From positions 1 through 64,000 of the forward strand of contig JAHFQX010000001.1 of the NCBI GenBank assembly GCA_023259135.1: a stretch of 64,000 bases of DNA, read 5' to 3'. Made by a program: the position numbers and the translations under genes. Numbering within the stretch: position 1 is the first letter of the stretch; the number at the start of each line of letters is the position of its first letter. This stretch comes from Betaproteobacteria bacterium (lineage in GTDB: Bacteria > Pseudomonadota > Gammaproteobacteria > Burkholderiales > JAHFQX01). Shown in pieces: positions 24,574-45,308 of this stretch. Below the pieces are notes generated by a model. It ran no database searches. It was not told where the DNA came from and was given only the letters and a program-made list of their open reading frames with translations.

Positions 24574-25389
24574 TCACCGCGTAATGCGTAACTCCCTCAA
24601 CAAGCCATCGGGATCCACCTGGGTTCGCAGCACCGCGAGTTCCTGGGCGGTGGGGGGCTCGGTTTCGAGCACCTGCTCCGGAACTCCCAGGGGAAAGCCG
24701 GTCTTGGACTGCACCTCGTCCACGCTAACGCCGGGGTGCAGCGACTTGATCCGCATGGTTCCGGTGGCCGGGGCAAAATCGAAGATGCCCAGCGGAGAAA
24801 ATACCAACTGCGGCCCCTGGCAAAGCGGCGGAACGTATTTCTTGCGCTCGGGGGTATGTCCGGGCGAGCTAACGAAATCCACCTGTTCGACGAAGATCCT
24901 CGGAGTGTGGTGCATCGTGAAAAAATAAACGATGCCGAAGGACACGCCGAAGCACAGCCCGACGGTGCCCACGCCCCGCACCTTGGGCGCGGCGTAATCC
25001 CCCACGCACACCATGTTGCTGCTGCCGTATTGATCGATCTGGATGCCGCCGACCACGGCGACGATCTTCCCGTTGTCGCGGCTGTAGCGCCACATCTCGA
25101 TATCGACGATGTCCTCCATGTTCATCACGTACTCCGCGCCCCGCAGCACCCGATGATCCGATGTCGAGGTGACCAGCTTGGAACTGGAATTGATGGCCCC
25201 GCCGCCGCCGGCCAGCCACCACAGGTTGGGGGCGTAAAGGATGCGCGCCAGCTTCATGGCCGCCGCGGGCAATTGCGAATAGGCGCCGACCGCCGCCCAG
25301 TCGCCGTCGTGGTGCTTCATCTGGCGGGCGATGGCCACCGCCATCAATTCGCCGGTCGAGTAACTTGATTTGCTCATCGTGGATTGCAT
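24574..25389 (-). CDS. CoA-transferase-fold subunit B, IpdB-like
   Basis: 271 residues, family I CoA-transferase fold. Instead of the SENG motif that carries the catalytic Glu of true CoA-transferases, the corresponding region reads WWLAGGGGAINSSSKL. In IpdAB of actinobacteria the transferase Glu is also missing and the pair is a hydrolase that opens the last steroid ring. Other landmarks: TGELMAVAIARQM, GGIQIDQYGSSNM, CVGDYAAPKVRGVG and FVEQVDFVSSPGHTPERK. Eleven bases after the A subunit and in one unit with an IpdC-like enzyme. The steroid assignment is inference from motif loss and gene partners. GAGGGGAG precedes ATG 25389. Confidence 0.8.
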   Translation of the reverse strand: MQSTMSKSSYSTGELMAVAIARQMKHHDGDWAAVGAYSQLPAAAMKLARILYAPNLWWLAGGGGAINSSSKLVTSTSDHRVLRGAEYVMNMEDIVDIEMWRYSRDNGKIVAVVGGIQIDQYGSSNMVCVGDYAAPKVRGVGTVGLCFGVSFGIVYFFTMHHTPRIFVEQVDFVSSPGHTPERKKYVPPLCQGPQLVFSPLGIFDFAPATGTMRIKSLHPGVSVDEVQSKTGFPLGVPEQVLETEPPTAQELAVLRTQVDPDGLLRELRITR

Positions 25390-25399
25390 GACGCTCCCC

Positions 25400-26287
25400 T
25401 CACAGCGATTCGCGCAGGTTCAGCAAGCGCTCGATGCCGAACTTCTCGAGATAGGCGAAGTGATCCTTCGGACCGAACACGTATTCGCGCAGGTAGGCAT
25501 CGATGTCGGCATCGCGATAATCCCGAATCGCCGCTTCGTCATGGTTGTAAACGCCGTGGCAGGACAGCGGGTGAGCGCCGAACGGCGCCTTCACCACCAT
25601 GTCGATATAGTGTCCCGGAATGCTCGTGCGCTTCGGGTCGGCCTGGATGCTTTCCAGAGGGACGATCTCCTCGGCCGTCACGATGGTGCGGCGGGACGCC
25701 TTGGCGATCAAGTCGTCGGCCACCACCGAGCCCAAATGCACGACATTGCCGTAAGGGTCGCAGCGCGCCGCATGGATGATGCCGACGTCGGGGGCAATGG
25801 CCGGCGAGACGATGATTTCGCGCCCGGTATAGGGATCGAGGGTGCGCTGGTAGGTCGGCTCGCGCTTCGGATTGTCGCGGGCCTCGTGACCCGGCGGATA
25901 GGGGACGAAGGGCAGGCCCAGGGCGCCGGCCTTCAAGCCCAGCACGTAGTAAATTTCGTCGCCGTCGATGATCTTGATGCGGCCCTGTTCGGCGGCCTCG
26001 CGGTAGCGGGGCGCCATCCCCAGGTGCTCCAGGCCGACATAGCAGACCATCAGCGTGTCCACGCATCCGGCCCCCACCAGCAAATCGGCCGGCATGCCGG
26101 CGCTGACGTTGGCGATCAGCTTGAGGCTCTTGGTTCCTTGCCGGATGATCTCCCGGATCAGCGCCATCGGTCCGTTGTGCGAGTGAATCCCGCCAAACGC
26201 CAGGGTATCGCCGTCCTTGATCAAGGCCGCGGCCTGTTGCAGGGTGCCGACCTTGCGGGTCCGCTGCGGTGCGTCTATCACTTCCAT
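25400..26287 (-). CDS. CoA-transferase-fold subunit A, IpdA-like
   Basis: 295 residues from ATG 26287 (MEVIDAPQRTRKVG), preceded by GGAGGACAGGC. The N-terminal segment IKDGDTLAFGGIHSHNGPMALIREI is the CoA-transferase alpha signature; KLIANVSAGMPADLLVGAG and GRIKIIDGDEIYYVLGLKAGALGLPF follow. The Glu in DGDEIYY lies where I expect the IpdA catalytic Glu, but this needs an alignment. Forms a heteromer with the B subunit next door. Likely reaction: hydrolytic C-C ring cleavage of a CoA-linked cyclic diketone, if the IpdAB analogy holds; otherwise an ordinary CoA transfer. Confidence 0.8.
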   Translation of the reverse strand: MEVIDAPQRTRKVGTLQQAAALIKDGDTLAFGGIHSHNGPMALIREIIRQGTKSLKLIANVSAGMPADLLVGAGCVDTLMVCYVGLEHLGMAPRYREAAEQGRIKIIDGDEIYYVLGLKAGALGLPFVPYPPGHEARDNPKREPTYQRTLDPYTGREIIVSPAIAPDVGIIHAARCDPYGNVVHLGSVVADDLIAKASRRTIVTAEEIVPLESIQADPKRTSIPGHYIDMVVKAPFGAHPLSCHGVYNHDEAAIRDYRDADIDAYLREYVFGPKDHFAYLEKFGIERLLNLRESL

Positions 26288-26307
26288 GCCTGTCCTCCTC
26301 CGGATAT

Positions 26308-27456
26308 TCAGTCGTAGTTCACCCGCCCCGGCAATTGCCGGGCCAGCACGTCGCGGGCGGTTTCGATCATTTGCTCGACGATCTTCGCGGCCGGCAACAC
26401 CGCTTCGATGCGGCCGACCCCCTGGCCGCAGAAAATGCCGGATTCCGCGTAATGTCCCGCCTGGGCGGCGCCCAGCGCCATGGGCGTGGCGAGAATCGCC
26501 TGCTTCGGCATCGGCAACGGCGCCAGGCCCGAGGCATCGCAGGCGTTGTCCCAGTCGCTGCGCAGGTGCCGACAGGTCTTGCCCGTGTACCACTTGGTGC
26601 GGGCGGTGGCGGTGTCGTCGGCCGCGAGAATTTTATCCTTGTACCAGTCCGGAGCGCTGCATTCCGCGCTGGCAATGAAGCGCGACCCGACCCAGACGCC
26701 GGTGGCGCCCAACGCCAACGCCGCGGCCAGCCCCTTGCCATCGACGATGCCGCCGCCGGCCACCACCGGCGTGGGCGCCACCCGCTCGGCCACTTGCGGA
26801 ATCAACACCATGCCGTCGATATCGCCGCTGTGCCCGCCGGCCGCCGTTCCGGTGCAGATGACCGCGTCAACCCCGCCTTGGGCGACGCGAACCGCGTCCT
26901 TGACCTTGCCCACCACGCTCATCACCTTGATGCCCAGAGCGTGGGCCTCGGGCACCATGAAGGACGGGTTGCCCAGGGCCGAGACGAACAGCGCCGGGCG
27001 GACTTCGAGTATCGCCCGCACCTGGGTGCGGCTGAAGGCTTCGCCGAGCTTGAACGAGGCCACCGAGCTCATGCCGGGATTGGCCTTGCGCACGTCGTCC
27101 ACCAGCGGAATGCCGCGTTCCCGCAAGAACCGTGCGCGAAATTCGATGTATTCCTGGGGAATCCGGGCCTTTTCCGCGGCCTCGGCATATTCCAGCCCGT
27201 AGCTCTCGGCCCGCGCCGGCAACCCGATGTCGATGCCGAACGGCCGCCCGGTCAGCTTGCGGGTTTCCTTAGCCATCGCGTGAATCTCTTCCGGGCTCTT
27301 GTCGGCGCAGGCCAGCACGCCGATGCCGCCGGCCTCCGACACCGCCGCCACCAGCTTGGGATCAGAAAGATCAGGGGCCATGGCCGCCAGCATGATGGGA
27401 TAGTCGATCCCCAACAGATCGCACAGCGGGGTCCAGAATTTTCTGCGTCCGGCCAT
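26308..27456 (-). CDS. Nitronate-monooxygenase-family flavoenzyme, IpdC-like
   Basis: 382 residues, TIM-barrel FMN protein of the 2-nitropropane dioxygenase/enoyl reductase II family: DYPIMLAAMAPDLSDPKLVAAVSEAGGIG at the N-terminus, SALGNPSFMV, DAVICTGTAAGGHSGDIDGMVLIP and VVAGGGIVDGKGLAAALALGATGVWVGSRF for phosphate binding. In steroid degraders the family member IpdC reduces a ring intermediate just before IpdAB acts. The gene lies 20 bases upstream of the IpdA-like gene, so the three form an ipdC-ipdA-ipdB string. As a stand-alone family member it could otherwise be a nitronate monooxygenase. AGGAGGAACAG precedes the ATG. Confidence 0.8.
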   Translation of the reverse strand: MAGRRKFWTPLCDLLGIDYPIMLAAMAPDLSDPKLVAAVSEAGGIGVLACADKSPEEIHAMAKETRKLTGRPFGIDIGLPARAESYGLEYAEAAEKARIPQEYIEFRARFLRERGIPLVDDVRKANPGMSSVASFKLGEAFSRTQVRAILEVRPALFVSALGNPSFMVPEAHALGIKVMSVVGKVKDAVRVAQGGVDAVICTGTAAGGHSGDIDGMVLIPQVAERVAPTPVVAGGGIVDGKGLAAALALGATGVWVGSRFIASAECSAPDWYKDKILAADDTATARTKWYTGKTCRHLRSDWDNACDASGLAPLPMPKQAILATPMALGAAQAGHYAESGIFCGQGVGRIEAVLPAAKIVEQMIETARDVLARQLPGRVNYD

Positions 27457-27487
27457 CTGTTCCTCCTCCCGGAATCGTTGTCGGATT

Positions 27488-28642: not shown

Positions 28643-28814
28643 CGCCACCTTCCTAAAATTCCAGGGCAACCTGCGTGCAACGCTGAACCGGATGCCGGCC
28701 GGACGCTTGGTCAGCCCATATCGACGCCATGCTATCATGGAAAATCCGTAGAGAGTCGCTCCGGCCCAGGGAAGGATGGGCGCCGACCCTATGCCTTTTT
28801 AGCCGAGGACAGAC

Positions 28815-29972
<1,158 letters not shown>

Positions 29973-29986
29973 ACCCGTCCGACGCC

Positions 29987-30769: not shown

Positions 30770-30777
30770 ACATCGCC

Positions 30778-32229: not shown

Positions 32230-33579
32230 CTATTTCTGCGCCGTGGGAAAACAGCCGATGACGTCCTGGATGCGGCCCGCCGGCAGCCGTTCCACGAAAC
32301 CCTCCAGCCGGTCGTAGGTGGCGCCGGGAATGCCCAATTCGCCGCCGATGCGGCGGATCAAGGCGGACACCCCGGCCCGGTCGTAGCTGTAATCGGCGGT
32401 GGTCATGCGCTGGTCTTGCACCACGGTGCCGCCCTCTGCCAGGTCGGCTTCGATAACGCAGCACAGGCTGGGGATGGCCGGATCGGCCTGCAAATCCACC
32501 CGCTCCATGAAGGCGTTGATTTCCCGGTCGTCGTAGGTGGTCATGGTCCGCATGGAAGGCGCGCCGCGCAGCAAGGTAGCGGCGATGCAGAACGGAATGC
32601 TCATCAGGGTGCCGGAGATGGTGGAGAAAGGCCCTTTGGCATCCATCCCGGCATAACCCACCGCGTAAGGGTCCATCCGCACCCGGACGGCGTTGACGGC
32701 GCGGCCAGCGAGTTTTTCCCGCAACTCCAGGGCGGCGGTGACGGGGGTCTGGTTGAAGGCGCACACCGGAAAGGGCTTGAAAGTCACCCGCCGCACCGAC
32801 CACTCCTTCCCGAGGCGGCCGGCCAGCGCTTGCACGTCGCAGGCGGTACGGGCATAGGCCTGCACGAAGCCGGATTTGCCTTCGAACGCCAGGGGGGCGG
32901 AAACCGAACCGTGGCGGGCCAATTCCGTCGCGGTGAGGCCGATCTGTCCCGCCACGCCGACCTGATAGCGCCATTCGTCGGTGCCGTCGGCGAAGGATTG
33001 CAAGGTGCCGCCGGCGAAGGACGCGGCATTTTCCAGGGCGCCGCGGGTCTGAGCTTCGCTCAGCCCCAGCAGCTTGGCGCTGGCCGCGGCGGCGGCCAGG
33101 GTGCCGTACAAGGGAGTGGCCCGCAACCCGGCGGGAGTGGTAAGCCCGGCATAGGCCCCCTCCAGCAGCCCGCCCGCTTCGTAGCCGGCGATCAACGAGG
33201 GCAGCAGCCGGTCCAGCGGAAGCTTCCGCGCTTCGATGAGCCCCGTGAGCAGCGGAATCATGATGGCCCCCATATGGGCCGCTCCGCAGGTGTCTTCCTG
33301 GGCGCGGCCGTGGAACAGGGCGGAGTTGGCCAAAGCGGCGCCGGTTACCGTGGTTTTGCGTCCATCCCCCAGCAGCGTGGCGCCCTCGGGACGCTCGCCC
33401 GCCACGGCCAGGGCGGCTTGGCGGGCCACCGGCGCGTAGGGAGTGCCCAGCGAACCCAGGCCGATGCCGTAGCCGTTGAGCAAACAACAACGGGCTTTCT
33501 CCACCACGTCGGCGGGCACTGCCGCCAAGGACAATCCGTGAACGAAACGGGCCAGATGGGCGCTCAGAGTGGTTTCCAT
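32230..33579 (-). CDS. MmgE/PrpD family protein
   Basis: 449 residues of the MmgE/PrpD family (2-methylcitrate dehydratase, cis-aconitate decarboxylase, iminodisuccinate epimerase). N-terminal ARFVHGLSLAAVPADVVEKARCCLLNGYGIGL, GAAHMGAIMIPLLTGLIEARKL and KPFPVCAFNQTPVTAALELREK are recognisable. There is no 2-methylcitrate synthase nearby, so propionate catabolism through methylcitrate is not indicated. A dehydratase or isomerase acting on an island intermediate is more likely. It is the last gene of a 12-gene operon, 40 bases after an acyl-CoA synthetase. GGAGACTCCC precedes the ATG. Confidence 0.83.
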   Translation of the reverse strand: METTLSAHLARFVHGLSLAAVPADVVEKARCCLLNGYGIGLGSLGTPYAPVARQAALAVAGERPEGATLLGDGRKTTVTGAALANSALFHGRAQEDTCGAAHMGAIMIPLLTGLIEARKLPLDRLLPSLIAGYEAGGLLEGAYAGLTTPAGLRATPLYGTLAAAAASAKLLGLSEAQTRGALENAASFAGGTLQSFADGTDEWRYQVGVAGQIGLTATELARHGSVSAPLAFEGKSGFVQAYARTACDVQALAGRLGKEWSVRRVTFKPFPVCAFNQTPVTAALELREKLAGRAVNAVRVRMDPYAVGYAGMDAKGPFSTISGTLMSIPFCIAATLLRGAPSMRTMTTYDDREINAFMERVDLQADPAIPSLCCVIEADLAEGGTVVQDQRMTTADYSYDRAGVSALIRRIGGELGIPGATYDRLEGFVERLPAGRIQDVIGCFPTAQK

Positions 33580-33619
33580 GGGAGTCTCCTGGTGATGGTG
33601 ATGCGGGGGTTCTGCGCGC

Positions 33620-35119
33620 TCACGCGGCTGAGCGGAATTCGTCCCGCAGCACGCGCTTCAGAATCTTGCCGGAGGGATTGCGGGGCAGCATTTCCCGGAA
33701 GTGCAATTCCTTGGGGACCTTGAAGCCCGCTAGGTGGGCCCGGCAATGGCGCTCCAGGGCCGGGTAGTCCAGGGCGGCGCCGGATTTCAGCACCACCACC
33801 GCCACCGGCCGCTCGCCCCACTTTTCGTCGGGCAGGCCGATGACGGCGCATTCCGCCACCTGGGGAAGTTGATAAATCACCCGCTCCACTTCCGAGGAGG
33901 CGATGTTCTCGCCGCCGGAGATGATCATGTCCTTCTTGCGGTCGGTGATGAACAGAAAGCCGTCGCGATCCAGCACGCCCATGTCGCCGCTGCGGAACCA
34001 ATCGCCGAAGAAGCTAGCGGCGGTTTTCTGCGGATCCTTCCAGTAGCCCTGGGTTACCTTGGGGCCGCGGATGCAGATTTCTCCTTCCGTATCCGGCGGC
34101 AGCACATTGCCCTGGTCATCGCGGATTTGCAGCTCCACGTGAGCCAGCGCCCGGCCGGTGGAGCCGATTTTCTCGATCTCCCGGCCGGCTTCCATGAGGG
34201 TGTCGCCGCTGCATGTCTCGGTGAGGCCGTAGCCGTCGATGTAGCGGCCGTTCTTGAACAACTGAGTAAATTCCCGGATGCGGGATTCGGGAGTTTTCTC
34301 GCCGCCGCCGATGCACCATTTGAGCGAACTGACGTCGTAGCGCTGGCGGCCTTCGCAGCCCAAGGTTTGGCCCAGCATCACCGGCGCCATCCAGGCGCAG
34401 GTCAGGCGCTCCCGTTGGATGGAGGCCAGGGCCGCGGCGGCGTCGAACTCCCGATGCAGGCAGAGCATGCCGCCCAGCCATAGCAGCGCCATGCCGGGCA
34501 GATCGTAGGCGCCCACGTGGTAGAGGGGCCCCACCGTCAGCAGCCGGTCCTCGCCGGTGAGCCCCAGGTTCATGATATGGTCCATGCACTTCCAGTAGAA
34601 ATTGTTATAGGTGTGCATGACCCCCTTGGGGCGATCGGTGGTGCCGGAGGTATACATCAACCGGAATAGGTCGTCGGGCTTGCGGAAGGTCTGGCCCGGA
34701 TCAGTCAGCTTGGCATCTGCCAAGCGGCGCGGATCGGCCTGGGCGGCTTCGTCCACCGCCACCACTTGCGGCAGTCCGCTCACCTGGGCGGCGAACTCGG
34801 TATCGGCGAATACCAGCTTGGCGCCGGCGTTGTCGGCGATGTAGGCCACTTCCTCGGCCGCCAGGCGGTAGTTGACGGGCAGGAAGACAGCGCCGATTTG
34901 GCTCACGGCAAAGGATAGATCCAAAAACGCCGGGGAATTTTTCATGAACGCCGCCACCACGTCGCCCTCTCGAATCCCCCGGGCAACCAGCAGGGCGGCC
35001 ACTCGGGAACAGCGGTCGGCCAGCTCAGCGTAGCTGATTCTGAGATCGCCGTACACCACTGCGGCGCGGTCCGGCGTGCGGCTGGCGTGGAAGCGGATGA
35101 AGGCGCTCAAATTCACCAT
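33620..35119 (-). CDS. AMP-dependent acyl-CoA synthetase (copy 1)
   Basis: 499 residues, ANL superfamily; activates a carboxylic acid to its CoA ester through an acyl-AMP. Motifs: P-loop LMYTSGTTDRPKGVMHTY, GYGLTETCSGD (A5), FRSGDMGVLDRDGFLFITDRKKDMI (A7/A8 hinge) and the C-terminal catalytic Lys in PSGKILKRVL. It is a close paralogue of the synthetase at 40371-41882: both share the unusual GTTDRPKGVMH loop, SSEVERVIY and PQVAECAV. It sits 24 bases after an acyl-CoA dehydrogenase. Substrate unknown; FadD3- or LvaE-like roles would fit the context. Confidence 0.88.
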   Translation of the reverse strand: MVNLSAFIRFHASRTPDRAAVVYGDLRISYAELADRCSRVAALLVARGIREGDVVAAFMKNSPAFLDLSFAVSQIGAVFLPVNYRLAAEEVAYIADNAGAKLVFADTEFAAQVSGLPQVVAVDEAAQADPRRLADAKLTDPGQTFRKPDDLFRLMYTSGTTDRPKGVMHTYNNFYWKCMDHIMNLGLTGEDRLLTVGPLYHVGAYDLPGMALLWLGGMLCLHREFDAAAALASIQRERLTCAWMAPVMLGQTLGCEGRQRYDVSSLKWCIGGGEKTPESRIREFTQLFKNGRYIDGYGLTETCSGDTLMEAGREIEKIGSTGRALAHVELQIRDDQGNVLPPDTEGEICIRGPKVTQGYWKDPQKTAASFFGDWFRSGDMGVLDRDGFLFITDRKKDMIISGGENIASSEVERVIYQLPQVAECAVIGLPDEKWGERPVAVVVLKSGAALDYPALERHCRAHLAGFKVPKELHFREMLPRNPSGKILKRVLRDEFRSAA

Positions 35120-35143
35120 GGCATGATTCTCCTCCGGGTGGGT

Positions 35144-36316
35144 TCAATAAGACCGGGGCATGCCCAGATCGTGGACCGCGATGTAGTTCAGCACCATTTC
35201 CTCGGAAACCGGCGCGAAGCGGAACAGGCGGGCATCCCGCCAGAGCCGCTCCAGATCCATCTCCTTGGCGTAACCCATGCCGCCCATGGTCTGCATGCCC
35301 CGTTCGATGGCGGCGGCGGCGGCCTGGGCGGCGATCAGCTTGGCGATGTTGGCGTCGCTGCCGTAGGGCAGGCCGGCATCGCAATTGGCCGCGGCCCGGT
35401 AATTCATCACTCGGGCGCATTCGATCTGGGCATGGGCCTGGGCTAGGGGAAATTGTATGCCCTGGTAGGCGCCGATGGGAGTCTTGCCGAACACCTTGCG
35501 ACCCTTGGCGTAATCCACCGCCAGCCGGATGGCCAGCTCGGTGGCCCCCACCAAGGCAGCGGTGGTGACGATGCGTTCGGTATTGAGCACTTCCAGCAAA
35601 TGGGACCAGCCCTGGTGCAGCGTGCCCAGCACTTCATTGGGCTCCACTCGCACGTCGTCGAAGTACACGCTGCTGGAGGGCAGGGTATTGGTGCCCAGCT
35701 TCTCGATGGGGGTATGGCGCAGGCCGGGGCGGCTGACGTCGATCATGAACAGCGTGATGCCGTCGGTTTTTTTCTGGATCTCATCCACTTTCTTGGTGCG
35801 CGCCACCACCAGCATCTTGGCGGCCTGGGGCACCCCAGTGATCCAGATCTTCTGGCCCGACAACCGGAAACCCGCGCCGTCGGGCCGGGCGAAGCTGCGC
35901 ATTTCCAGGGTGTTGGTGCCGGCGTCGGGTTCGGTGAGCGCCATGCAGAAAGTGGCCTGCCCCGAGATCAACTTAGGCAGCAGGTCGCGCTGCATTTCCT
36001 CCGAGCCGAATTTGCTGATGGATACTCCGCCGAAAATGGGATTGACCATGAACAATTGGCCCAGGGTCGGGCCGCCGCCGCAAGCTGCCAGAGTCTCCAC
36101 GATCAGCGCCATCTCCAGCATGCCCAGCCCCGCCCCTCCCGCTTCCTGGGGCAACGCCACGCCGCACAGGCCGGTGTCGCATACCGCCTGCCACAACTCC
36201 GCGGGAAACGCTTTATGCTTGTCTTTTTCGCGCCAATATTCGACGCCGAACCGGTTGCCGACCTTGCGGGCCGATTCCACCAGCATTCTCTGTTCTTCGG
36301 TCAGGGCGAAATCCAT
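35144..36316 (-). CDS. Acyl-CoA dehydrogenase
   Basis: 390 residues. MALTEPDAGTNTLEM, GFRLSGQKIWITGVPQAAKM, DYAKGRKVFGKTPIGAYQGIQ and MQTMGGMGYAKEMDLERLWRDARLF are present. The usual Glu loop reads FAPVSEEMVLNYIA; a Glu occurs in LNTERIVTTAALVG, again the isovaleryl/long-chain position. It belongs to the 12-gene operon, 16 bases after the E2-like gene, and presumably acts on CoA esters made by the paired synthetases. GGAGCCTCCG precedes ATG 36316. Confidence 0.87.
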   Translation of the reverse strand: MDFALTEEQRMLVESARKVGNRFGVEYWREKDKHKAFPAELWQAVCDTGLCGVALPQEAGGAGLGMLEMALIVETLAACGGGPTLGQLFMVNPIFGGVSISKFGSEEMQRDLLPKLISGQATFCMALTEPDAGTNTLEMRSFARPDGAGFRLSGQKIWITGVPQAAKMLVVARTKKVDEIQKKTDGITLFMIDVSRPGLRHTPIEKLGTNTLPSSSVYFDDVRVEPNEVLGTLHQGWSHLLEVLNTERIVTTAALVGATELAIRLAVDYAKGRKVFGKTPIGAYQGIQFPLAQAHAQIECARVMNYRAAANCDAGLPYGSDANIAKLIAAQAAAAAIERGMQTMGGMGYAKEMDLERLWRDARLFRFAPVSEEMVLNYIAVHDLGMPRSY

Positions 36317-36332
36317 CGGAGGCTCCTTCGGG

Positions 36333-37448
36333 TTATTTTTCCAGGGTCAGCAACAACAACCGCATGGGATTTTCCAGAAATTCCACGATCCGGCACAGCA
36401 AGGCAAGACCCGCATCGCCAGGCATCCCGTGGGGGTCCGCCGCCAGGGCCAGGCCTATTTCCCGCCCCAGCACCGGGGCTCCGGCGCTGTCCGGGTAAAA
36501 CCGCGAGGCCACGCTCCCTACCCCAAGGCTCAAGCCTCCCGCTCCCAGGGGCGGGATCAGCCGAGAAATGCCCTGGTGGCCCTTCAGGGGCCATGGGGCC
36601 CCGGCGTTGTACAGCACCAGGGCCTCCGGATCGGCGGGGAGCGTTTCTCCCGCCCGAACCCGGCCGGCCAGCTCGGCGATGCGCCGGGCCAGGGCCTCCA
36701 GCCCCAGGCCGGCTGCCCCTTCCAGCGCCGGCATGGCCATTCCCCGGGGGCCGGGAAGGGCGCAGGCCAAGTTAAGCCCCGCCGATTCCGGGGCGGCGGC
36801 CAGCGCCCGGGCGGCCGCCAGGGCGATCCAGTGGGTCAGGGTGAGGGGCGGCTGGGCGCTGGAGGCCTGCAGCTGCTCCTTCACGGCGAGCAGTGCGTCC
36901 GCCCGGGCTTCCGCCAGCAGCACATAACCCGCCGGCGCGGCCAGCGACGCAATGCGGGGCGCTTGCTCCAGGTCCTGGGCGCGAATCCGCCCGGCCGGGC
37001 CGCCGCCTTGAATCCGCTCAAGGTCGATGTTCCGCTCACGAGCCAGGCGGCGAGCATAGGGCGTGGCGATTATTCTGGTGTCGTCGGGTCGGGTCGGCAG
37101 CGGGGGTTTCGCCACGGGCGGGGGCCGGACTGAAGCCGGCGTGGCTGCCGCCGGAGCTTCGGCTAGGGCGGCGGGCTGGGAGGCGGGAGCCACGGCGCTT
37201 GGTCCGGAAGCGCTCGTCCAACGGGCCACCGGGGTGCCCACCGCCACCGTCTGTCCGGCCGGCACCAACACGACTTCGATCACGCCGTCCTGCTGGGCCT
37301 CGATCTCGGTGGCGATTTTGTCGGTTTCCACCACGAACAGCGGCGCCCCGGCCGAGAAAGCCACGCCGGGCTTGACCAGCCATTCCGACAGGATGCCTTC
37401 GGTCATGGTCAGGCCCAGCTTGGGCATCACCAGCAGGGAATCGGCCAC
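36333..37448 (-). CDS. 2-oxoacid dehydrogenase E2-like lipoyl protein with degenerate acyltransferase motif
   Basis: 371 residues. N-terminal lipoyl domain with the lipoylated Lys (VVETDKIATEI, Lys44), a Pro/Ala linker (about 82-120), a peripheral-subunit-binding domain (IIATPYARRLARERNIDLERIQGGGPAGRI) and a C-terminal acyltransferase domain. The catalytic DHRxxDG of E2 enzymes aligns with DPHGMPG: the His and the second Asp are both Pro. The acyltransferase is therefore probably inactive, or uses another chemistry. GTG start at 37448 follows GGGAGA. It is separated from E1 alpha/beta by an enoyl-CoA hydratase gene. No E3 is in the window. Confidence 0.82.
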   Translation of the reverse strand: MADSLLVMPKLGLTMTEGILSEWLVKPGVAFSAGAPLFVVETDKIATEIEAQQDGVIEVVLVPAGQTVAVGTPVARWTSASGPSAVAPASQPAALAEAPAAATPASVRPPPVAKPPLPTRPDDTRIIATPYARRLARERNIDLERIQGGGPAGRIRAQDLEQAPRIASLAAPAGYVLLAEARADALLAVKEQLQASSAQPPLTLTHWIALAAARALAAAPESAGLNLACALPGPRGMAMPALEGAAGLGLEALARRIAELAGRVRAGETLPADPEALVLYNAGAPWPLKGHQGISRLIPPLGAGGLSLGVGSVASRFYPDSAGAPVLGREIGLALAADPHGMPGDAGLALLCRIVEFLENPMRLLLLTLEK

Positions 37449-37452
37449 GAGC

Positions 37453-38238
37453 TTAGTCTCCCTTGAAGCGGGCGGGACGTTTTTCCAGGAAGGCGGAGCA
37501 GCCCTCGTGGGCGTCGTTGCTGTCGAGCACCAGGCCGATCAGCGCCTGCTCGAAGGGCAGCGCCGCCGCCAACGGCATGTCGGCGCCGTGCAGCAGGCTG
37601 CGCTTCAACAGCTTCAGCACCAGCGGAGATTTCTCGGCGATACGGGCTGCCAGCGCCAGGGCTTCCGGCATCAGCTCGGCCTTGGGCACCACGCGGTTGG
37701 CCAACCCCAGGCTGACGGCCTCCTGGGCGGTGATCTGATCGCCGGTGAACATCAGTTCCTTGGCGCGGCACAGGGGAATTTGCCGGATCAGCCGCTGGGT
37801 GCCGCCAGCGCCGGGAAACAAGCCCAGCGTGATCTCCGGCAACCCCAGCTTGGCGCTGTCGGCCAACAGCCGGATGTCCAGGGACAGCAAGAGCTCGGTG
37901 CCGCCCCCCAGGGCCCAGCCGTTCACCGCGGCGATGGTAGGCTTGTCGCATTGTTCGAAGCGGCGCAGCAGCCGGTGGATGACCTCGGCGAATTCCCGGT
38001 AGTGGGCCAAGCCCCGCCGGGAATTGAGATCGGCGATGTCGCCCCCGGCGATGAAGGAGCGCTCCCCGGCGCCGGTCACCACCAGCACCCGGACGGCGGC
38101 ATCGGCCTCGGCGGCGCTTAGCGCCTGCTCCATCTCCAGGATGGTGGGGATGTCCAGGGCGTTGAGGGTCTTGGGCCGGTTGATGGTCAGAATGGCAACG
38201 GCGCCTTGGCGTTCGCTCAGGATGGCGGGTTCGTTCAT
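37453..38238 (-). CDS. Enoyl-CoA hydratase
   Basis: 261 residues, crotonase fold with both catalytic glutamates: WALGGGTELLLSLDIRL and LGLPEITLGLFPGAGGTQRL; oxyanion region RSFIAGGDIADL. It hydrates 2-enoyl-CoA. ATG 38238 has AGGAGCACTGC upstream; the 403-aa track ORF extends into the E1 beta gene in another frame. It sits between the E1 beta and E2-like genes in the operon, suggesting that the dehydrogenase-like complex and a beta-oxidation step act on one pathway. Confidence 0.9.
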   Translation of the reverse strand: MNEPAILSERQGAVAILTINRPKTLNALDIPTILEMEQALSAAEADAAVRVLVVTGAGERSFIAGGDIADLNSRRGLAHYREFAEVIHRLLRRFEQCDKPTIAAVNGWALGGGTELLLSLDIRLLADSAKLGLPEITLGLFPGAGGTQRLIRQIPLCRAKELMFTGDQITAQEAVSLGLANRVVPKAELMPEALALAARIAEKSPLVLKLLKRSLLHGADMPLAAALPFEQALIGLVLDSNDAHEGCSAFLEKRPARFKGD

Positions 38239-38278
38239 GCAGTGCTCCTCGTGCGAAAGGTGGGGAAACTGAAACAGG

Positions 38279-39253
38279 TCATGCCAGCACTCGCCGGGCG
38301 GCCTCGAGGATGCGGGCTTCGCTGGGCACGTACTGGGCTTCCAGGCTTTTGGCAAAGGGCACCGGCATAAAGGGTGCTCCGACTCGGACGATGGGGGCGT
38401 CCAATTCGTCGAAGCCCGCATCGGCCATGCGGGCCGCGATCTCGGCGCCGACGCCGAACGCTTCCACGGCCTCGTGGACCAGCAGCAGCCGGTGGGTGCG
38501 CGACAGGGAGGCCAGTACCGCGGCTTCGTCCCAGGGCTGCAAGGAGCGCAGATCGATGACCTCGGCATCGACCCCTTCCGCCGCGAGTTTTTCGGCGGCG
38601 CCCAGGCAGGTGTGCAGCATCGCGCCATAGGTGACGATGCTAATATCCGTTCCCGCTCGGGCAATGCGCGCCTGGCCTATGGGCACCAGCGGGCAAGGTT
38701 CCGGCATTTCTCCCTTGGTGCCGTACAAGGCCTTGTGTTCCACGTAGATCACCGGATCGGGATCGTCGATGGCGGAACGCAGCAAGCCGTAGGCATCGGC
38801 CGGCGTGGCGGGGCACACCACTTTCAGGCCGGGAATGTGGGCGAACCACGCTTCCAGGCATTGGGAGTGCTGCGGCCCGGCGTTGACCCCGGCGCCGTGG
38901 GGAGCCCGCAGCACCATGGGCACCGAGCACTGGCCGCCGAACATGAAGCGGGCCTTGGCGGCCTGGTTTACCAGGGCATCCATGGCCAAGGTGGTGAAAT
39001 CCATGAACATGATCTCCACCACTGGCTTGAGCCCGCTCATGGCGGCCCCCACCGCGGCGCCGACGATGGCGGCCTCGGAGATGGGGGTGTCCCGCACCCG
39101 GTCCGGGCCGAACTGTTCCAACAGCCCCTTGGTGGCATTGAAAGGGCCGCCGGGCCGGGCCACGTCCTCGCCGAACAGAATGACGCGAGAGTCGCTGGCC
39201 AAGCTGTCGGCCAGGGCGGCGGTGATGGCTTTGACGTAACGGGTTTCGGCCAT
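38279..39253 (-). CDS. 2-oxoacid dehydrogenase E1 beta subunit (AcoB/PdhB-like)
   Basis: 324 residues. Transketolase-like pyrimidine-binding and C-terminal domains: VILFGEDVARPGGPFNATKGL, DTPISEAAIVGAAVGAAMSGLKPV with the conserved Glu, PHGAGVNAGPQHSQCLEAWFAHIPGLKVV, and IDLRSLQPWDEAAVLAS. Pairs with the alpha subunit three bases upstream to form the thiamine-diphosphate E1 of a pyruvate-, acetoin- or branched-chain-type dehydrogenase. ATG 39253. The 420-aa track frame extends into the alpha gene and is not real at its 5' end. Confidence 0.9.
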   Translation of the reverse strand: MAETRYVKAITAALADSLASDSRVILFGEDVARPGGPFNATKGLLEQFGPDRVRDTPISEAAIVGAAVGAAMSGLKPVVEIMFMDFTTLAMDALVNQAAKARFMFGGQCSVPMVLRAPHGAGVNAGPQHSQCLEAWFAHIPGLKVVCPATPADAYGLLRSAIDDPDPVIYVEHKALYGTKGEMPEPCPLVPIGQARIARAGTDISIVTYGAMLHTCLGAAEKLAAEGVDAEVIDLRSLQPWDEAAVLASLSRTHRLLLVHEAVEAFGVGAEIAARMADAGFDELDAPIVRVGAPFMPVPFAKSLEAQYVPSEARILEAARRVLA

Positions 39254-39255
39254 GG

Positions 39256-40374
39256 TCAAACTCCCGCCCTGGGCGAAGTTGAAGGACGCGTGTAAACATC
39301 CGCCAGAGCCTCCTGGAAATCCGGCAGCGTCCCCTGCCGGCCGCGGGCTACGGCAGCCTCGATGCGGCGGTCGACTTTTTCCGAAAGCTCTTGCAGCGCC
39401 GCCGCGCTGACTTTGAGGGCGCGCAGCCGGGCCGCGGCGCGGGGGATGGGATCGATCTTGGGCAGTTGCGCCAACTCCTCCGCATCCCGATAACGCTGGG
39501 GGTCCCCCTCGAAATGGCCCCGCACCCGCCCCGTCATGCATTCTAAGGCCTGGGGGCCGCCGCCGCGGGCGACTTCCACCGCGGCCGTCGCGGCCAACGC
39601 CACCGCCTCCACGTCGTTGCCGTCCACCCGTCGATAAGGGATGCCGAAGGTTTTCGCCAGGCCTTCCAGACTGCCGGCGAACTGGCGGGAAGTGGGGGAA
39701 AATTCCGACCAGCCGTTATTCTCGCAAACGAACAGCAAAGGCAATTTCCACAACGCGGCAAGATTGAGGCACTCATGGAGCAATCCCTCGGCCATGGCGC
39801 CGTCGCCGAAGAAAGCCGCCACTACCCGCCGCTCGCGCCTGAGCTGATGAGCCAAGGCGCTGCCCAGCGCCAAGGACAGCCCGGCGCCGACGATGCCGTT
39901 GGCCCCCAGCATGCCCACCGCCATGTCGGCCACGTGCATCGAGCCGCCGCGGCCGCCGCAGATGCCTTCCCGCTTGCCCATGATCTCCAGGAAAAACGCC
40001 TCGAGATCCACCCCCTTGGCCAGCGAATGGCCGTGGCCTCGGTGGGTGGAGGCGATGCTGTCCTGGGCGGCCAAGGCTTGGCAGACCCCGGCCGCCACCG
40101 CTTCCTGGCCGATGCTCAGATGGATGAAGCCGGGGATTTCGCCGTCGGCGAACAGCGCACTCAAGCGCTGCTCGGCCCGCCGCACCAGCAGCATGGTTTG
40201 GTACAAATCGAGCAAGGCGTCTTTGGGAAGTTCGGCGGGCCGCTTGGCCACCGAGGAGGTGTTGGATTTGGCCGTCCGGTTCGGCTTGCGGGCGGCCGGT
40301 TTCCGTAGCCCTTCCGATGGCTCTTCAGCGGCCATAGTGGCCATTGCTTTCGGGCCGGAGGCGGGAGCTTTCAT
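39256..40374 (-). CDS. 2-oxoacid dehydrogenase E1 alpha subunit (AcoA/PdhA-like)
   Basis: 372 residues. After a basic, Ala/Lys/Pro-rich 45-residue N-terminal extension come YQTMLLVRRAEQRLSALFADGEIPGFIHLSIGQEAVA, STHRGHGHSLAKG, and the thiamine-diphosphate motif GDGAMAEG...FVCENNGWSEFS. The C-terminal tail YTRPSTSPRAGV is encoded by a stretch resembling the dispersed TTCGACTTCGC repeat, so the original end may have been rewritten. ATG 40374 overlaps the stop of the upstream acyl-CoA synthetase (ATGA). Likely acetoin- or 2-oxoacid-type E1; substrate not readable. Confidence 0.9.
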   Translation of the reverse strand: MKAPASGPKAMATMAAEEPSEGLRKPAARKPNRTAKSNTSSVAKRPAELPKDALLDLYQTMLLVRRAEQRLSALFADGEIPGFIHLSIGQEAVAAGVCQALAAQDSIASTHRGHGHSLAKGVDLEAFFLEIMGKREGICGGRGGSMHVADMAVGMLGANGIVGAGLSLALGSALAHQLRRERRVVAAFFGDGAMAEGLLHECLNLAALWKLPLLFVCENNGWSEFSPTSRQFAGSLEGLAKTFGIPYRRVDGNDVEAVALAATAAVEVARGGGPQALECMTGRVRGHFEGDPQRYRDAEELAQLPKIDPIPRAAARLRALKVSAAALQELSEKVDRRIEAAVARGRQGTLPDFQEALADVYTRPSTSPRAGV

Positions 40375-41882
40375 GGATTTTCCTTGAGTTGAGTCAGTTC
40401 ATCCCGGAGGACGCGCTTGAGAATTTTTCCAGAAGGATTGCGCGGCAAGGTATCCCGCAAATAAAGCGCCTTGGGCACCTTGAACCCCGCCAGATGGCCC
40501 CGGCAATGGCATTCCAGGGCAGCATAATCCAAAGCGGCGCCGGGTTTCAGCACCACCAGGGCCACCGGGGACTCGCCCCAGCGCGGGTCGGGGATCCCCA
40601 CCACCGCGCATTCGGCCACTTGCGGCAATTCGTAGATTACCCGCTCCACCTCGGAGGAAGCGATGTTCTCGGCGCCGGAGAGGATCATGTCCTTCTTGCG
40701 GTCGGTGAGGTAAAGGTAACCCTCTTCGTCCAGGTAGCCCACGTCGCCGCTGCGCAGCCATTCGCCGAAAAAACTGGCGGCGGTTTTCTCCGGATCTTTC
40801 CAGTAGCCCCGGGTGACCTTGAGGCCCCGCATGCAGATTTCGCCCACCTGGTTGGCGGGCAACCGGTTGCCGTCATCGTCGAACACGGCCACCTCGGTGT
40901 GGGCCACGGCGTGGCCGGCGGAGCCGATTTTCGCCAGCTCCATGCCGGGCGGCATCACGGTGTCGAAGGCGTTGGTCTCGGTCATGCCGTAGCCGTCGGC
41001 ATAGCGGGCGTTGGGGAAATAGGCGTTGAACTCGCGAATGCGGACTTCCGGGGTTTTTTCGCCACCGCCTAGCACCAGCTCCACGCTGCCGACATCATAG
41101 CGGTGCCGGTCGGGAAAGGCCAGGATGCGCCCCAGCATCACCGGCGCCAGCCACAGGCAGGTGATGCGGTGCCGCTGGATGGCGGCGAGCGTCCGGGCCT
41201 CGTCGAACTCCCGCAGCAGGCAGTACATTCCGCCCAGCATCAGCAGGTTGGTGCCGGGCGCGTCCCACCCCGCTACGTGGTACATGGGGCCCACCACCAG
41301 CGCCCGGGAACGATGGCTCAAATCCCAGGAAGTGACGTGCTCTAGCCACTTCCAATAATAGTTTTCATAACTATGCATGACCCCCTTGGGGCGGTCGGTG
41401 GTCCCCGAAGTGTACATCAGCCGGTGCAGATCCTGGGCGCTCACTTCGGCACGAGGCGGCACCGGCAGGCCGGGATTACCCAGCCGCGCGCTGTCCCGCT
41501 GGGCGGCCTCGTCCAGCCACACCACCGACGGCAACGCCGCCACGGCCTCCCTGAATTCCTCGTCGGCGAACAGCAGCTTGACCCCGGCGTGGTCGTGGAT
41601 ATAGGCGGCCTCTTCGGCGGCAAGCCGGTAATTCATGGGCAGCAGCACCGCCCCCAGGTGGCTGGTCGCGTAGCCCAGCTCCAGGTAGGCAAGGCTGTTC
41701 TTCATGAAGGCCGCGACGATGTCGCCCTGGCCGATGCCTCGGCCATGGAGCACGGCCGCCATCCGATCGACGCGGGCGGCCAGTTCGTCGTAGCTAACCT
41801 CCAGGTCCTCGTAGACCACCGCCACTTGCTCCGGATGGCGCAAGGCGCGGTAGCGCAGCCCGCTGGCTAGGTTGATCTGCAT
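40371..41882 (-). CDS. AMP-dependent acyl-CoA synthetase (copy 2)
   Basis: 503 residues, ANL-superfamily CoA ligase. LMYTSGTTDRPKGVMHSY, GYGMTETNAFDTV, RSGDVGYLDEEGYLYLTDRKKDM and PSGKILKRVLRDEL are all present. It is a paralogue of the synthetase at 33620-35119 and lies in the same operon, between livF and E1 alpha. Having two copies suggests two acids (for example entry substrate and a released side product) or a duplication. It is directly downstream of the ABC transporter genes, so it may activate the imported acid. Confidence 0.88.
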   Translation of the reverse strand: MQINLASGLRYRALRHPEQVAVVYEDLEVSYDELAARVDRMAAVLHGRGIGQGDIVAAFMKNSLAYLELGYATSHLGAVLLPMNYRLAAEEAAYIHDHAGVKLLFADEEFREAVAALPSVVWLDEAAQRDSARLGNPGLPVPPRAEVSAQDLHRLMYTSGTTDRPKGVMHSYENYYWKWLEHVTSWDLSHRSRALVVGPMYHVAGWDAPGTNLLMLGGMYCLLREFDEARTLAAIQRHRITCLWLAPVMLGRILAFPDRHRYDVGSVELVLGGGEKTPEVRIREFNAYFPNARYADGYGMTETNAFDTVMPPGMELAKIGSAGHAVAHTEVAVFDDDGNRLPANQVGEICMRGLKVTRGYWKDPEKTAASFFGEWLRSGDVGYLDEEGYLYLTDRKKDMILSGAENIASSEVERVIYELPQVAECAVVGIPDPRWGESPVALVVLKPGAALDYAALECHCRGHLAGFKVPKALYLRDTLPRNPSGKILKRVLRDELTQLKENP

Positions 41883-41907: not shown

Positions 41908-42615
41908 TTAGAGATAGGCAGCCGACAGTTCCTGAACATCGGCTCGAGCCAACTCGGCCGCCGGCCCTTCCCGGACCCATTGGCCGCGGCGCAGCAGATA
42001 GCCGTAGTCCGCCACCTTGAGCGCCAGGGACGCCATCTGCTCGCTCAACAACACCGCGGTGCCTCGCTCCCGGGCCACTGCGCCGATAAAGCGGAAGATC
42101 TGCTGGACCACGATGGGAGCCAATCCCAAGGAAGGCTCGTCCAGCAGCAGGTATTTCGGCCGGCGGATCAGGCTGCACGACAGAATCAGCATCTGCTGTT
42201 GCCCGCCGCTCAAGGTGCGGGCCGGACTGTGCCGGCGCTCCTTGAGCACCGGGAAAGAGCCGAATGCCGTGGCCAGGGCTGCCTCGAAGCTTCCGGTTGC
42301 CGCAGAAAAATCCCAGGCGAGCCGTAGGTTCTCCTCCACCGACAGGGGATGAAACAGCCTCCGGCCTTCCAGGGCGTGGGCCAGGCCGGCCCGGGCCCGG
42401 CGGTGGGGGGGCAGCGCGGTGATGTCCTCGCCATCCAGCCGGATTTCTCCCGACGCCACCGGGACCAGGCCGGAGATGGCTTTGAGCAGCGACGATTTGC
42501 CGGCGCTGTTGGCGCCCAGCACCGCGGTGATCACGCCGGGCCGGGCGGTGAGGCTGACGCCTCGCACCGCTTCGATGGCGCCGTAACGCACCGCGAGATT
42601 CCGGACCTCAAGCAT
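41908..42615 (-). CDS. livF: Branched-chain-amino-acid-type ABC transporter, second ATPase (LivF-like)
   Basis: 235 residues. Walker A GANSAGKSSLLKAI, signature LSGGQQQMLILSCSLIRRP, Walker B YLLLDEPSLGLAP. LivF-type ATPases pair with a LivG ATPase in HAAT importers. ATG 42615 overlaps the end of the fused LivM-LivG gene by eight bases. Family members import branched-chain amino acids, amides, urea or aromatic/steroid acids. Given the CoA-ligase genes that follow, an organic acid is the more likely cargo here. Confidence 0.9.
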   Translation of the reverse strand: MLEVRNLAVRYGAIEAVRGVSLTARPGVITAVLGANSAGKSSLLKAISGLVPVASGEIRLDGEDITALPPHRRARAGLAHALEGRRLFHPLSVEENLRLAWDFSAATGSFEAALATAFGSFPVLKERRHSPARTLSGGQQQMLILSCSLIRRPKYLLLDEPSLGLAPIVVQQIFRFIGAVARERGTAVLLSEQMASLALKVADYGYLLRRGQWVREGPAAELARADVQELSAAYL

Positions 42616-44404
42616 GGGCCGGCTCCTCCTCGGCGATCCCCAGATAAGCCGCCGCCACCTCGGGGTCGCGGCGCATGCCTTCCATATCCCCCCGATAGAT
42701 GACCTTGCCACTGTCCAGCACGACCACGCCATCCACCAGATCGTTGAGGAAATCCATGTGATGCTCCACCAGCACGATGCCCAGGCGCCGCTCCCGGAGT
42801 TGCCGGATCATGACCCCGAGCTTCTCCAATTCGGTTTCCGACAAGCCTGCGGCGGGCTCGTCCAGCAGGATCAACTCCGGGTCGGAGACGGCCGCCCGCG
42901 CCACTTCCGCCAGACGCTGGGTACCGTAGGGCAGATCTCCCAGTACCCAGTCGGCGAGCTCGGCGAGTCCGGCGAGCTGTAGCATCTCGTCCACTTGCCG
43001 CAGAAAAGCCGCTTCCTCCCGCAGCGCTATCCGGCTGTTGGAAGCCGCACCCCAGAGGCCATGCCGGTAGAGGCGATGGGCCCCCAGCAGTACATTTTCC
43101 CGGACCGTGAAATGGGGAACGTTGCGGGGGTCCTGGAAAGTGCGGATGATCCCGCGGCGGGACACCTCGTGGGCCTTGCGCCGGGCGATGTCATCGCCCT
43201 TGAACAGGACGCGCCCCATGGTGGGGCGGTAGACGCCACTGATGACATTGATCAAGGTGCTCTTGCCGGAGCCGTTGGGACCCACCAATGCCAGCACCCG
43301 GCCACGTTCGAGTTGCAGCGAGACATTGTCGAGGGCCAGCAGCCCGGCGAAATTCATGGTGATTTTTTCCGCTTGCAGCAGCGGGCTGTCCGCGACAGGC
43401 AGCGGCTCGCGGACAGGCAGCGGGCTCGGGAGGGCGGCGGCGTGAATTTTGGCGAAACGCGGCGGTGCGGTGAACACACCGGCAAGGCCCTTGGGCAAGA
43501 CCAGGAAAGATACCGCCAGGATGGCGCCGTAGGCCATGAACTGATATTCCGCGAAAGCTTGCAGCCGCTCCGGTAAATAGGTAAACAGCGCCGCCCCCAG
43601 CACCTGTCCCGGCAGCGATCCCAGGCCGCCGACAATGGCCATCACCAGGGCCTCCACCGAGCGGGTCAGGGCGAAGCTGTCTGGGCCGAGATAACCCACT
43701 AGCGGGGCGTAGCATCCCCCGGCAAGCCCCGCCAGGGCGGCGCTCAAAGTATAAGCGCTGCGCTTGGTGGCGGCTTCGGAAATACCGACACTGCCGGCCG
43801 CCAGTTCGCTCATATGAACCGCGAAATAGGCCCGCCCGAAATGACTGCGAATCAGATTGCGCAGCAAGGCGGTGGTTGCCGCCACGATGGCCAGCACGAT
43901 CCACAGGTAGGCCGCCGGCCCAATGGCGACGCCGAACATGGAGAGAGTGCGCAACGTCGGCGAGGGCACTCCGCTCAGGCCCATCACGCCCCCGGTGGCG
44001 GAAGTCCATTCCTTGGCGATCTCGTAGAAGATCATGCCGAACCCCAGCGTCATCATCGCCAGATAGAACTCCCGCACCCGGCCCGCCGGGAACGATAGCA
44101 GGTAGCCAACAATGCTGGACAGTGCCGCTGCCGCGGCCAGCGCCAAGGGCAAAGGCACGCCGTAATCCCGCATCAGCAAGGCGCAACCGTAGGCCCCCAC
44201 GCCGAAGAAACCGGCATGCCCAAGGGAGATTTGGCCGGCGAACCCGGTGAGCAGGTTGACGCTGTGGGCCAACAGCACGTTGATGAGGAAAAACGTGGCC
44301 ACCTGGATGGTGGCGCCGGAGGCGAGGCTCATGGCCGCCCCGAAGGCGACCGTCGCAACAAGAACGGCCCAAGGGCGGGACAGGAAGGTGCCGACCGTCT
44401 TCAT
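42608..44404 (-). CDS. Fused ABC permease-ATPase (LivM-LivG fusion)
   Basis: 598 residues joining two normally separate subunits. Residues 1-310 are a LivM-type permease with about eight to ten helices (LLTGFAGQISLGHAGFFGVGAYG, GGLGSLPGQVLGAALFTYLPE). After a linker, residues 345-598 form a LivG-type ATPase (Walker A GPNGSGKSTLINVI, YGTQRLAEVARAA as signature region, Walker B ELILLDEPAAGLSE, then EHHMDFLNDLVD). Such fusions are known in HAAT systems. ATG 44404 overlaps the livH stop (ATGA). Confidence 0.92.
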   Translation of the reverse strand: MKTVGTFLSRPWAVLVATVAFGAAMSLASGATIQVATFFLINVLLAHSVNLLTGFAGQISLGHAGFFGVGAYGCALLMRDYGVPLPLALAAAAALSSIVGYLLSFPAGRVREFYLAMMTLGFGMIFYEIAKEWTSATGGVMGLSGVPSPTLRTLSMFGVAIGPAAYLWIVLAIVAATTALLRNLIRSHFGRAYFAVHMSELAAGSVGISEAATKRSAYTLSAALAGLAGGCYAPLVGYLGPDSFALTRSVEALVMAIVGGLGSLPGQVLGAALFTYLPERLQAFAEYQFMAYGAILAVSFLVLPKGLAGVFTAPPRFAKIHAAALPSPLPVREPLPVADSPLLQAEKITMNFAGLLALDNVSLQLERGRVLALVGPNGSGKSTLINVISGVYRPTMGRVLFKGDDIARRKAHEVSRRGIIRTFQDPRNVPHFTVRENVLLGAHRLYRHGLWGAASNSRIALREEAAFLRQVDEMLQLAGLAELADWVLGDLPYGTQRLAEVARAAVSDPELILLDEPAAGLSETELEKLGVMIRQLRERRLGIVLVEHHMDFLNDLVDGVVVLDSGKVIYRGDMEGMRRDPEVAAAYLGIAEEEPAHA

Positions 44405-45285
44405 GCTTTAAGGAGTTCGCTACGCCCGAACAGACCTTGGGGCCGCACCGCCAGGATCGCCATGAGCACTGCGAAGGCGATGCCATGCTCGGCCGCGGTG
44501 GAGATGTAGCCCCCCACCAGCTTCTCGATCACCCCGATGGCGATGCCCCCCACCAGCGCACCAAAGGTGTTACCGATGCCGCCCACCACCGCGGCGACGA
44601 AGCCCAGCACCATGAGATTAAAGCCGAAAGCGGGATCCACCGTGCCGGTGATCTGCGCCACCAGCAGCCCGGCCACCCCGGCCAATACTCCGCTCAAGGC
44701 GAAACAGACGAGAACCACCCGACGTACCGGAACGGCCATCAGCGAGGCCAACTCCGGGTCATGGGCCACCGCCCGCACCGCCCGGCCCCATTGGGTACGG
44801 CGCAGGATCAGTTCCAGCAGCAGCACCAGCACCACCGACAGGGCCAGCACCGCCAGATACTGGAGGGATAGCCGTACGCCGAGCAGGGTGATGAAATCCT
44901 CGCTGGAAAACAGGACGGAAGGAAAGGCCACCGCCTGCGAGCCAAAGAACTTGGCGGCGAAGCCTTGCAGCAGGATGCCCATCCCCAGGGTGGATACCAC
45001 CCATCCCATGGAGCCGGCCCGCTGGGCCAGAGGGCGAACCGCCACCGCCTCCACCCCGACCATGAGGATTGCCGCCAAGCCCAAGGCGGACAGCGCCGCA
45101 GGGACGATTCCCATGCCACTGGCGAGCAAAGCTGCCATGACCATGGCCGCCAGCATCAGGAGCGATCCCTGGCCGAAGTTGATGACCCGGGTGGCCAGAA
45201 AGGTGAGGGACAGGCCCACCGCGATGAGGGCGTAGACCGCCCCCACGCTGATGCCGGCAAATATCAATTGAAGGGCGAAGTCCAC
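44401..45285 (-). CDS. livH: ABC transporter permease (LivH-like)
   Basis: 294 residues with about eight membrane helices. LIFAGISVGAVYALIAVGLSLTF, TRVINFGQGSLLMLAAM and FVAAVVGGIGNTFGALVGGIAIGV are hallmark LivH segments. The start is a GTG (VDFALQL), 23 bases after the binding-protein gene, with no strong ribosome site; production may depend on coupling. Partner permease is the LivM half of the fused protein. Confidence 0.9.
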   Translation of the reverse strand: MDFALQLIFAGISVGAVYALIAVGLSLTFLATRVINFGQGSLLMLAAMVMAALLASGMGIVPAALSALGLAAILMVGVEAVAVRPLAQRAGSMGWVVSTLGMGILLQGFAAKFFGSQAVAFPSVLFSSEDFITLLGVRLSLQYLAVLALSVVLVLLLELILRRTQWGRAVRAVAHDPELASLMAVPVRRVVLVCFALSGVLAGVAGLLVAQITGTVDPAFGFNLMVLGFVAAVVGGIGNTFGALVGGIAIGVIEKLVGGYISTAAEHGIAFAVLMAILAVRPQGLFGRSELLKA

Positions 45286-45308
45286 CGGCGGGCCAAGGTC
45301 TCTGGGGT

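Follow-up and report, generated by a model that had tools for sequence, protein, structure and literature searches.

The first 64,000 nt of contig JAHFQX010000001.1 of Betaproteobacteria bacterium GCA_023259135.1 (this whole stretch is hereafter called the window; the genome, 2.58 Mb in size, is 98.99% complete) contain an operon of four genes, which code for an acyl-CoA dehydrogenase, a nitronate monooxygenase (NMO)-family FMN enzyme and two subunits with the CoA-transferase fold, here designated A and B (24574-26287). We put at about 0.52 the probability that this operon encodes a C–C hydrolase of the IpdAB type that acts on a non-steroid, probably alicyclic acyl-CoA, and that the A/B pair is not a CoA transferase. 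The genes of the operon and the codons of the two residues that matter most in this analysis are located as follows.

24574-25389, minus strand: subunit B (271 aa; Pfam CoA_trans, 31.8 bits at a cut-off of 23)
25207..25209, minus strand: codon of B Gly61, equivalent to Glu54 of glutaconate CoA-transferase (GCT) and to IpdB Gly57 (from alignment and PMC5380842)
25400-26287, minus strand: subunit A (295 aa, ATG at 26287; Pfam CoA_trans, 98.7 bits)
25955..25957, minus strand: codon of A Glu111, equivalent to IpdA Glu105 (from alignment to 6co6/6coj)
26308-27456, minus strand: FMN oxidoreductase of the NMO/FabK superfamily, not an IpdC orthologue judging from its tree (382 aa; Pfam NMO, 199 bits)
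27488-28738, minus strand: acyl-CoA dehydrogenase, first gene of the operon (Pfam Acyl-CoA_dh; likely start near 28648)

The four genes are close-packed over 24574-28738 in the order acyl-CoA dehydrogenase, NMO-family enzyme, A and B, with gaps of 20 bp between the NMO-family gene and A and 10 bp between A and B. The same order is found in two further groundwater Betaproteobacteria, FW602_bin.10 (L072) and NC_groundwater_1600 (L073), whose orthologues are 87% (dehydrogenase), 73-74% (NMO), 89% (A) and 83-84% (B) identical to those in the window. As the gene surroundings differ in these two genomes, the four genes form a conserved unit. The original prediction described a three-gene unit, and B, A and the NMO-family gene are indeed adjacent, but the unit that is conserved takes in the acyl-CoA dehydrogenase gene as its fourth member, whose orthologues also stand directly upstream of the NMO-family gene in both relatives.

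The catalytic Glu54 ('VESG') of GCT subunit B (1poi_B) aligns in phmmer with Gly61 of the window B, which lies in the AGGGGAINSS motif (residues 60-69); a MAFFT gap could shift the match to residue 62, which is also Gly. The absence of the transferase Glu from B, already noted in the original prediction, is thus borne out, with no Glu recovered by alignment, and IpdB of Rhodococcus jostii RHA1 likewise has Gly57 at this position (PMC5380842). The title of one PDB entry, 'CtfAB E46S active site mutant inactive', agrees with transferase activity being lost once that Glu is gone, and the same loss is predicted for the window pair. The Glu retained in subunit A, within DGDEIYY (residues 108-114), is Glu111, which aligns, with no local gaps, with the IpdA residue for which 6co6 has Glu and 6coj_A has Ala; the 6coj entry is titled 'IpdAB E105A COCHEA-CoA complex'. 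Both motifs are kept in the L072 and L073 orthologues and throughout the 17-member clade that contains the window pair in the A+B tree, so that this residue pattern cannot be put down to chance.

We compared the two positions in 131 A/B pairs (84 relatives and references plus the window pair, and 46 pairs from other loci). None of the 131 had Glu in both subunits: 31 pairs had it in B with another residue in A (mostly His, Gln or Asn), 74 in A with another residue in B, and 26 in neither, counts that are not independent, as relatives were counted one by one and sampling started from the window pair. On a tree built without the two Glu columns, the B-Glu corresponds to one change and the A-Glu to five. 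The A-Glu pairs span Pseudomonadota, Bacillota, Actinomycetota, Acidobacteriota, Chloroflexota and archaea, and with such a taxonomic spread the pattern characterizes a wide group in which IpdAB is a single branch. Loss of Glu from B with its retention in A had been regarded as the pattern of IpdAB, but many lineages beyond the IpdAB clade show it as well.

An exploratory scan for residues fixed in the 17-row clade of the window pair and in IpdAB and absent from transferases yielded M41, L43, R45, P93, D110, E111 and G117 in A and G61, D204 and R213 in B. A R45, D110 and E111 and B R213 are found in 17/17 pairs of the window clade, in all 13 IpdAB-type pairs and in none of the 31 B-Glu transferases; the respective counts for B D204 are 16/17, 13/13 and 2/31. 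Since R45, P93, D204 and R213 are also common among pairs that have neither Glu, they mark non-transferases generally; it is E111 together with D110 that marks the IpdAB-like subset. The window pair thus resembles IpdAB of R. jostii RHA1 and Mycobacterium tuberculosis (PDB 6co6, 6co9, 6coj, 6con) in its two-subunit CoA-transferase fold, in the Gly that replaces the B Glu, in the equivalent of A Glu105, and in A-Arg45, A-Asp110, B-Asp204 and B-Arg213. GctAB (PDB 1poi) and other type I CoA transferases, which have the same fold and provide the top PDB sequence matches of A and B, differ in carrying the B Glu and another set of residues. An IpdAB-like working mode of the A/B pair is likely.

Several variants were seen among these proteins. 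In four loci of Burkholderiales (L143, L144, L145 and L146), located beside 2-oxoacid dehydrogenase E1/E2 genes, A has Cys-Cys at the Glu position ('DSCCYT') and B has Gly. The genome of the window itself encodes two more odd pairs with the CoA-transferase fold: one at G000:C73:42177-43828 (L025), beside a CaiB-like CoA transferase gene, and one at G000:C44:14697-16198 (L027), located in an acyl-CoA dehydrogenase/thiolase/ChsH2-like cluster that also encodes a DctP-type protein. At the Glu position the C73 paralogue has Cys or Gly, depending on the placement of the MAFFT gap, and it is therefore assigned to none of the groups. A and B are fused into a single polypeptide of ∼550–580 aa in Heliophilum fasciatum and several Acidobacteriota (L078:9026-10765, L089, the second copy in L090, L092, L125, L133 and L137). 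A model of the natural Heliophilum fusion (L078), whose B and A motifs are those of the window pair, had pLDDT 83 and pTM 0.84, and its A half fitted IpdA (TMt 0.85, root-mean-square deviation 2.7) better than GCT-A (0.77 and 4.8).

The original prediction assigned the genes to an IpdABC set, a view that the trees contradict. In the A+B tree, the authentic IpdAB pairs, for which plasmid-borne ipd clusters of Novosphingobium (pNL2 and pP6W1), Nocardia farcinica and Caballeronia served as references, form a clade of their own with support of 100, whereas the window pair belongs to the 17-row clade (support 96) together with Bacillota, Rhodospirillaceae and Deltaproteobacteria, and forcing it into the IpdAB clade was rejected (approximately unbiased test, P = 0.0037). 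An enlarged tree still united 13 IpdAB-type pairs in one clade (support 100) without the window pair. Neither did the window pair group with the ordinary transferases, as correctly anticipated: 29 Glu-bearing pairs were found on one side of a branch with support of 81 and the window pair on the other. The NMO-family enzyme had been considered a counterpart of IpdC. Both belong to the NMO/FabK superfamily, but IpdC groups with FabK (96/96) and the window protein is in a different branch, where its only close neighbours in the tree are the orthologues from the two relatives. With both A/B and the NMO-family enzyme outside the respective clades, membership in IpdABC is rejected. Four further NMO-family paralogues are encoded in the same genome (contigs C40, C46, C52 and C53; L168-L171), several of them next to apparent solute-binding proteins, thiolases or CaiB-like transferases.

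Gene neighbourhoods also differ. The Novosphingobium ipd clusters are annotated as encoding a VOC protein, A, B, enoyl-CoA hydratase, NMO, hydratase, two acyl-CoA dehydrogenases and thiolase, of which the window neighbourhood has in common only an acyl-CoA dehydrogenase and an NMO. The typical neighbours among the HIP genes (an echA20-type hydratase, thiolase, paired acyl-CoA dehydrogenases and a VOC dioxygenase) were not found beside the operon, nor was FadA6, and the identity of A/B to IpdAB is 25-33%. Steroid and aromatic markers were checked family by family in the genome. No KstD was found in it, as the only full-length FAD_binding_2 proteins, both strong matches, look SdhA-like and NadB-like, and there is no extradiol dioxygenase of HsaC size, the only glyoxalase-family proteins being too short (149 and 190 aa). 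The window's CoA ligases do not reach the FadD3 cut-off. Because KstD and an HsaC-sized protein are missing from a 99%-complete genome, a steroid role is very unlikely, which contradicts the suggestion of a distal steroid gene cluster; the other option offered originally, a different cyclic substrate, is still the best one. Besides these negatives, the genome scan for ring-degradation genes revealed no benzoyl-CoA reductase (no PF06050 match) and, on the positive side, one BadI-like protein, which scored best with BadI at 428.5 bits (cut-off 467.6) against 338 for MenB; its gene, coding for a 2-ketocyclohexanecarboxyl-CoA hydrolase-like protein, is isolated (G000:C26:26886-27668; L182). Anaerobic benzoyl-CoA degradation in this genome was also considered and, with PF06050 missing, dropped.

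In the reaction sequence that we predict, the acyl-CoA dehydrogenase and the FMN enzyme, the latter in a role likened to that of IpdC in its own pathway, would introduce unsaturation into a CoA-bound ring that bears a 2-oxo group, whereupon A/B would add water and break a C–C bond, with A Glu111 as the putative acid/base. In steroid degradation, the enone is the joint product of IpdF and IpdC, and the opening of ring D is due to EchA20 and that of ring C to IpdAB, the latter step being described as retro-aldol hydrolysis (PMC5380842). Among the papers available for searching, nothing further was found on IpdAB Glu105, on other C–C hydrolases of the CoA-transferase family or on a connection of this gene set with alicyclic acids.

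Clues to the substrate come from relatives of the window pair in its clade. In four Bacillota loci (L078, L081, L084 and L093), A/B and bzd-type benzoyl-CoA reductase genes lie no more than 10 kb apart, with both bzdN and bzdO above their cut-offs in L093, and benzoate-CoA-ligase-family, BadH-like and Oah/BadI-like proteins are encoded there too. BcrC-like genes are found in L075 and L076, and in L083, from a neighbouring clade, Bcr-like genes stand beside B and A. The window-clade relatives with benzoyl-CoA-reductase neighbours are from Bacillota and Deltaproteobacteria. The benzoyl-CoA reductase pathway runs via 6-oxocyclohex-1-ene-1-carbonyl-CoA, which is its ring-opening substrate. COCHEA-CoA, the substrate of IpdAB, is a substituted 6-oxocyclohex-1-ene-1-carbonyl-CoA (PMC5380842). 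This context, together with the BadI-like protein in the genome of the window, makes alicyclic carboxylic acids the most plausible substrates, and the compound acted upon is most likely the acyl-CoA of such a non-steroid acid. The reaction proposed for A/B, opening of a 2-oxocyclohexane- or 6-oxocyclohexene-carboxyl-CoA ring, is of the same class as those of BadI and BamA/Oah, but these hydrolases have the crotonase fold and are unrelated to A/B, and the BadI-like gene of this genome is a separate one.

Several observations weigh against an IpdAB-type hydrolase of alicyclic acyl-CoA. No thiolase or hydratase belongs to the four-gene operon. In overall identity, the window A is closer to GCT-A (37%) than to IpdA (27-32%), and B is about equally distant from GCT-B and IpdB. 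The model of B alone is weak (pLDDT 73) and fits GCT-B, AibB and IpdB about equally. Finally, without benzoyl-CoA reductase in the genome of the window, the substrate link drawn from the relatives is indirect, and ring opening in the Bacillota clusters could also be the work of a crotonase that they encode.

The overall similarity and fold, both transferase-like, would also suit a CoA transferase in which the nucleophile has moved, so that A-Glu111 forms the acyl-CoA anhydride normally formed by the B-Glu, and the fact that no pair of the 131 combines the two Glu residues would fit such a swap. However, IpdAB has the same arrangement and shows no transferase activity and no CoA transfer between short acids (PMC5380842), further residues differ from those of transferases, and dedicated CoA ligases are encoded nearby; we regard this explanation as unlikely, if the most probable of the alternatives. 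Next to it, and also unlikely, comes a decarboxylase akin to AibAB (3-methylglutaconyl-CoA decarboxylase, PDB 5mzw), which would release CO2 from an unsaturated dicarboxyl-CoA with no need for a catalytic Glu. AibAB is a non-transferase of the same fold that has lost the B Glu, so this fold can yield a decarboxylase once that residue is gone; it falls among the non-transferase pairs and its A subunit is 37% identical to the window A. Yet AibB has Cys56 where the window B has Gly, AibA lacks the Glu of the window A, and AibAB is found elsewhere in the tree.

Still less probable is some other chemistry (hydratase, lyase or thioesterase) on a non-cyclic acyl-CoA in the degradation of branched-chain or 4-hydroxy acids. 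The genome is rich in acyl-CoA catabolism, and the neighbouring genes suggest 4-hydroxyacyl-CoA and 2-oxoacid metabolism, but the copies of these neighbours found in both relatives sit on other contigs than the operon, and the linkage in the window may be incidental. A true IpdABC set, in which the pair would open the last steroid ring with the other steroid genes elsewhere in the genome, has in its favour the matching active-site signature and the adjacent NMO-family gene; given the positions of A/B and the NMO-family enzyme in their trees, the missing ipd neighbours and the missing steroid markers, it is largely refuted and hardly credible. The reading we prefer therefore remains a C–C hydrolase of the IpdAB type with a non-steroid substrate.

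Upstream of the operon, the window contains the following neighbouring modules.

28815-32189, plus strand: Lva-like module, whose proximity to the operon is not conserved (acyl-CoA dehydrogenase, SDR, APH-type kinase, DUF6285 protein)
32230..41882, minus strand: catabolic block (MmgE/PrpD, CoA ligase, acyl-CoA dehydrogenase, E2, enoyl-CoA hydratase, E1beta, E1alpha and CoA ligase)
41908..46520, minus strand: LIV-type ABC transporter of the catabolic region

The Lva-like module resembles the levulinate (Lva) 4-hydroxyacyl-CoA route, for which LvaA and LvaC have been described (PMC12440821); in one relative (L181), it is kept elsewhere, together with a LIV transporter. The ligase-dehydrogenase-E2-hydratase-E1beta-E1alpha part of the catabolic block (33620-40374, minus strand) is found at 64-78% identity (lower for E2) in both relatives, on other contigs. 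It encodes a 2-oxoacid dehydrogenase. We dropped the idea that the operon is directly tied to either neighbour, the Lva-like module or the block with the 2-oxoacid dehydrogenase, as the relatives' copies that were found lie on other contigs. Among the loci sampled, the records titled 'Bordetella parapertussis' (L097, L101 and L108) are metagenome-assembled genomes (MAGs); that label looks doubtful, since in L097 and L101 the A/B pairs cluster with those of Betaproteobacteria and Burkholderiales MAGs.

Among the enzymes considered here, IpdAB is the one known C–C hydrolase with the CoA-transferase fold, and it is known from steroid degradation. A wider proposal, to which we give rather less than even odds, is that IpdAB is only the steroid branch of a large, mostly uncharacterised family of such hydrolases, with the Glu in A instead of B, found across bacteria and archaea. 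The branch that includes the window pair would then act on alicyclic or dearomatised rings by opening them, and its Bacillota members would serve benzoyl-CoA-reductase pathways as a ring-opening enzyme that is not a crotonase. Should function follow from the residue pattern, many environmental genes annotated as '(glutaconate) CoA transferase' are misnamed and really code for bond-cutting enzymes, and the mutual exclusion of A-Glu and B-Glu offers a simple two-residue rule for their re-annotation, as well as a direct test. For groundwater bacteria, such as the source of the window, these observations suggest an unrecognised ring-opening step in the degradation of alicyclic and aromatic acids.

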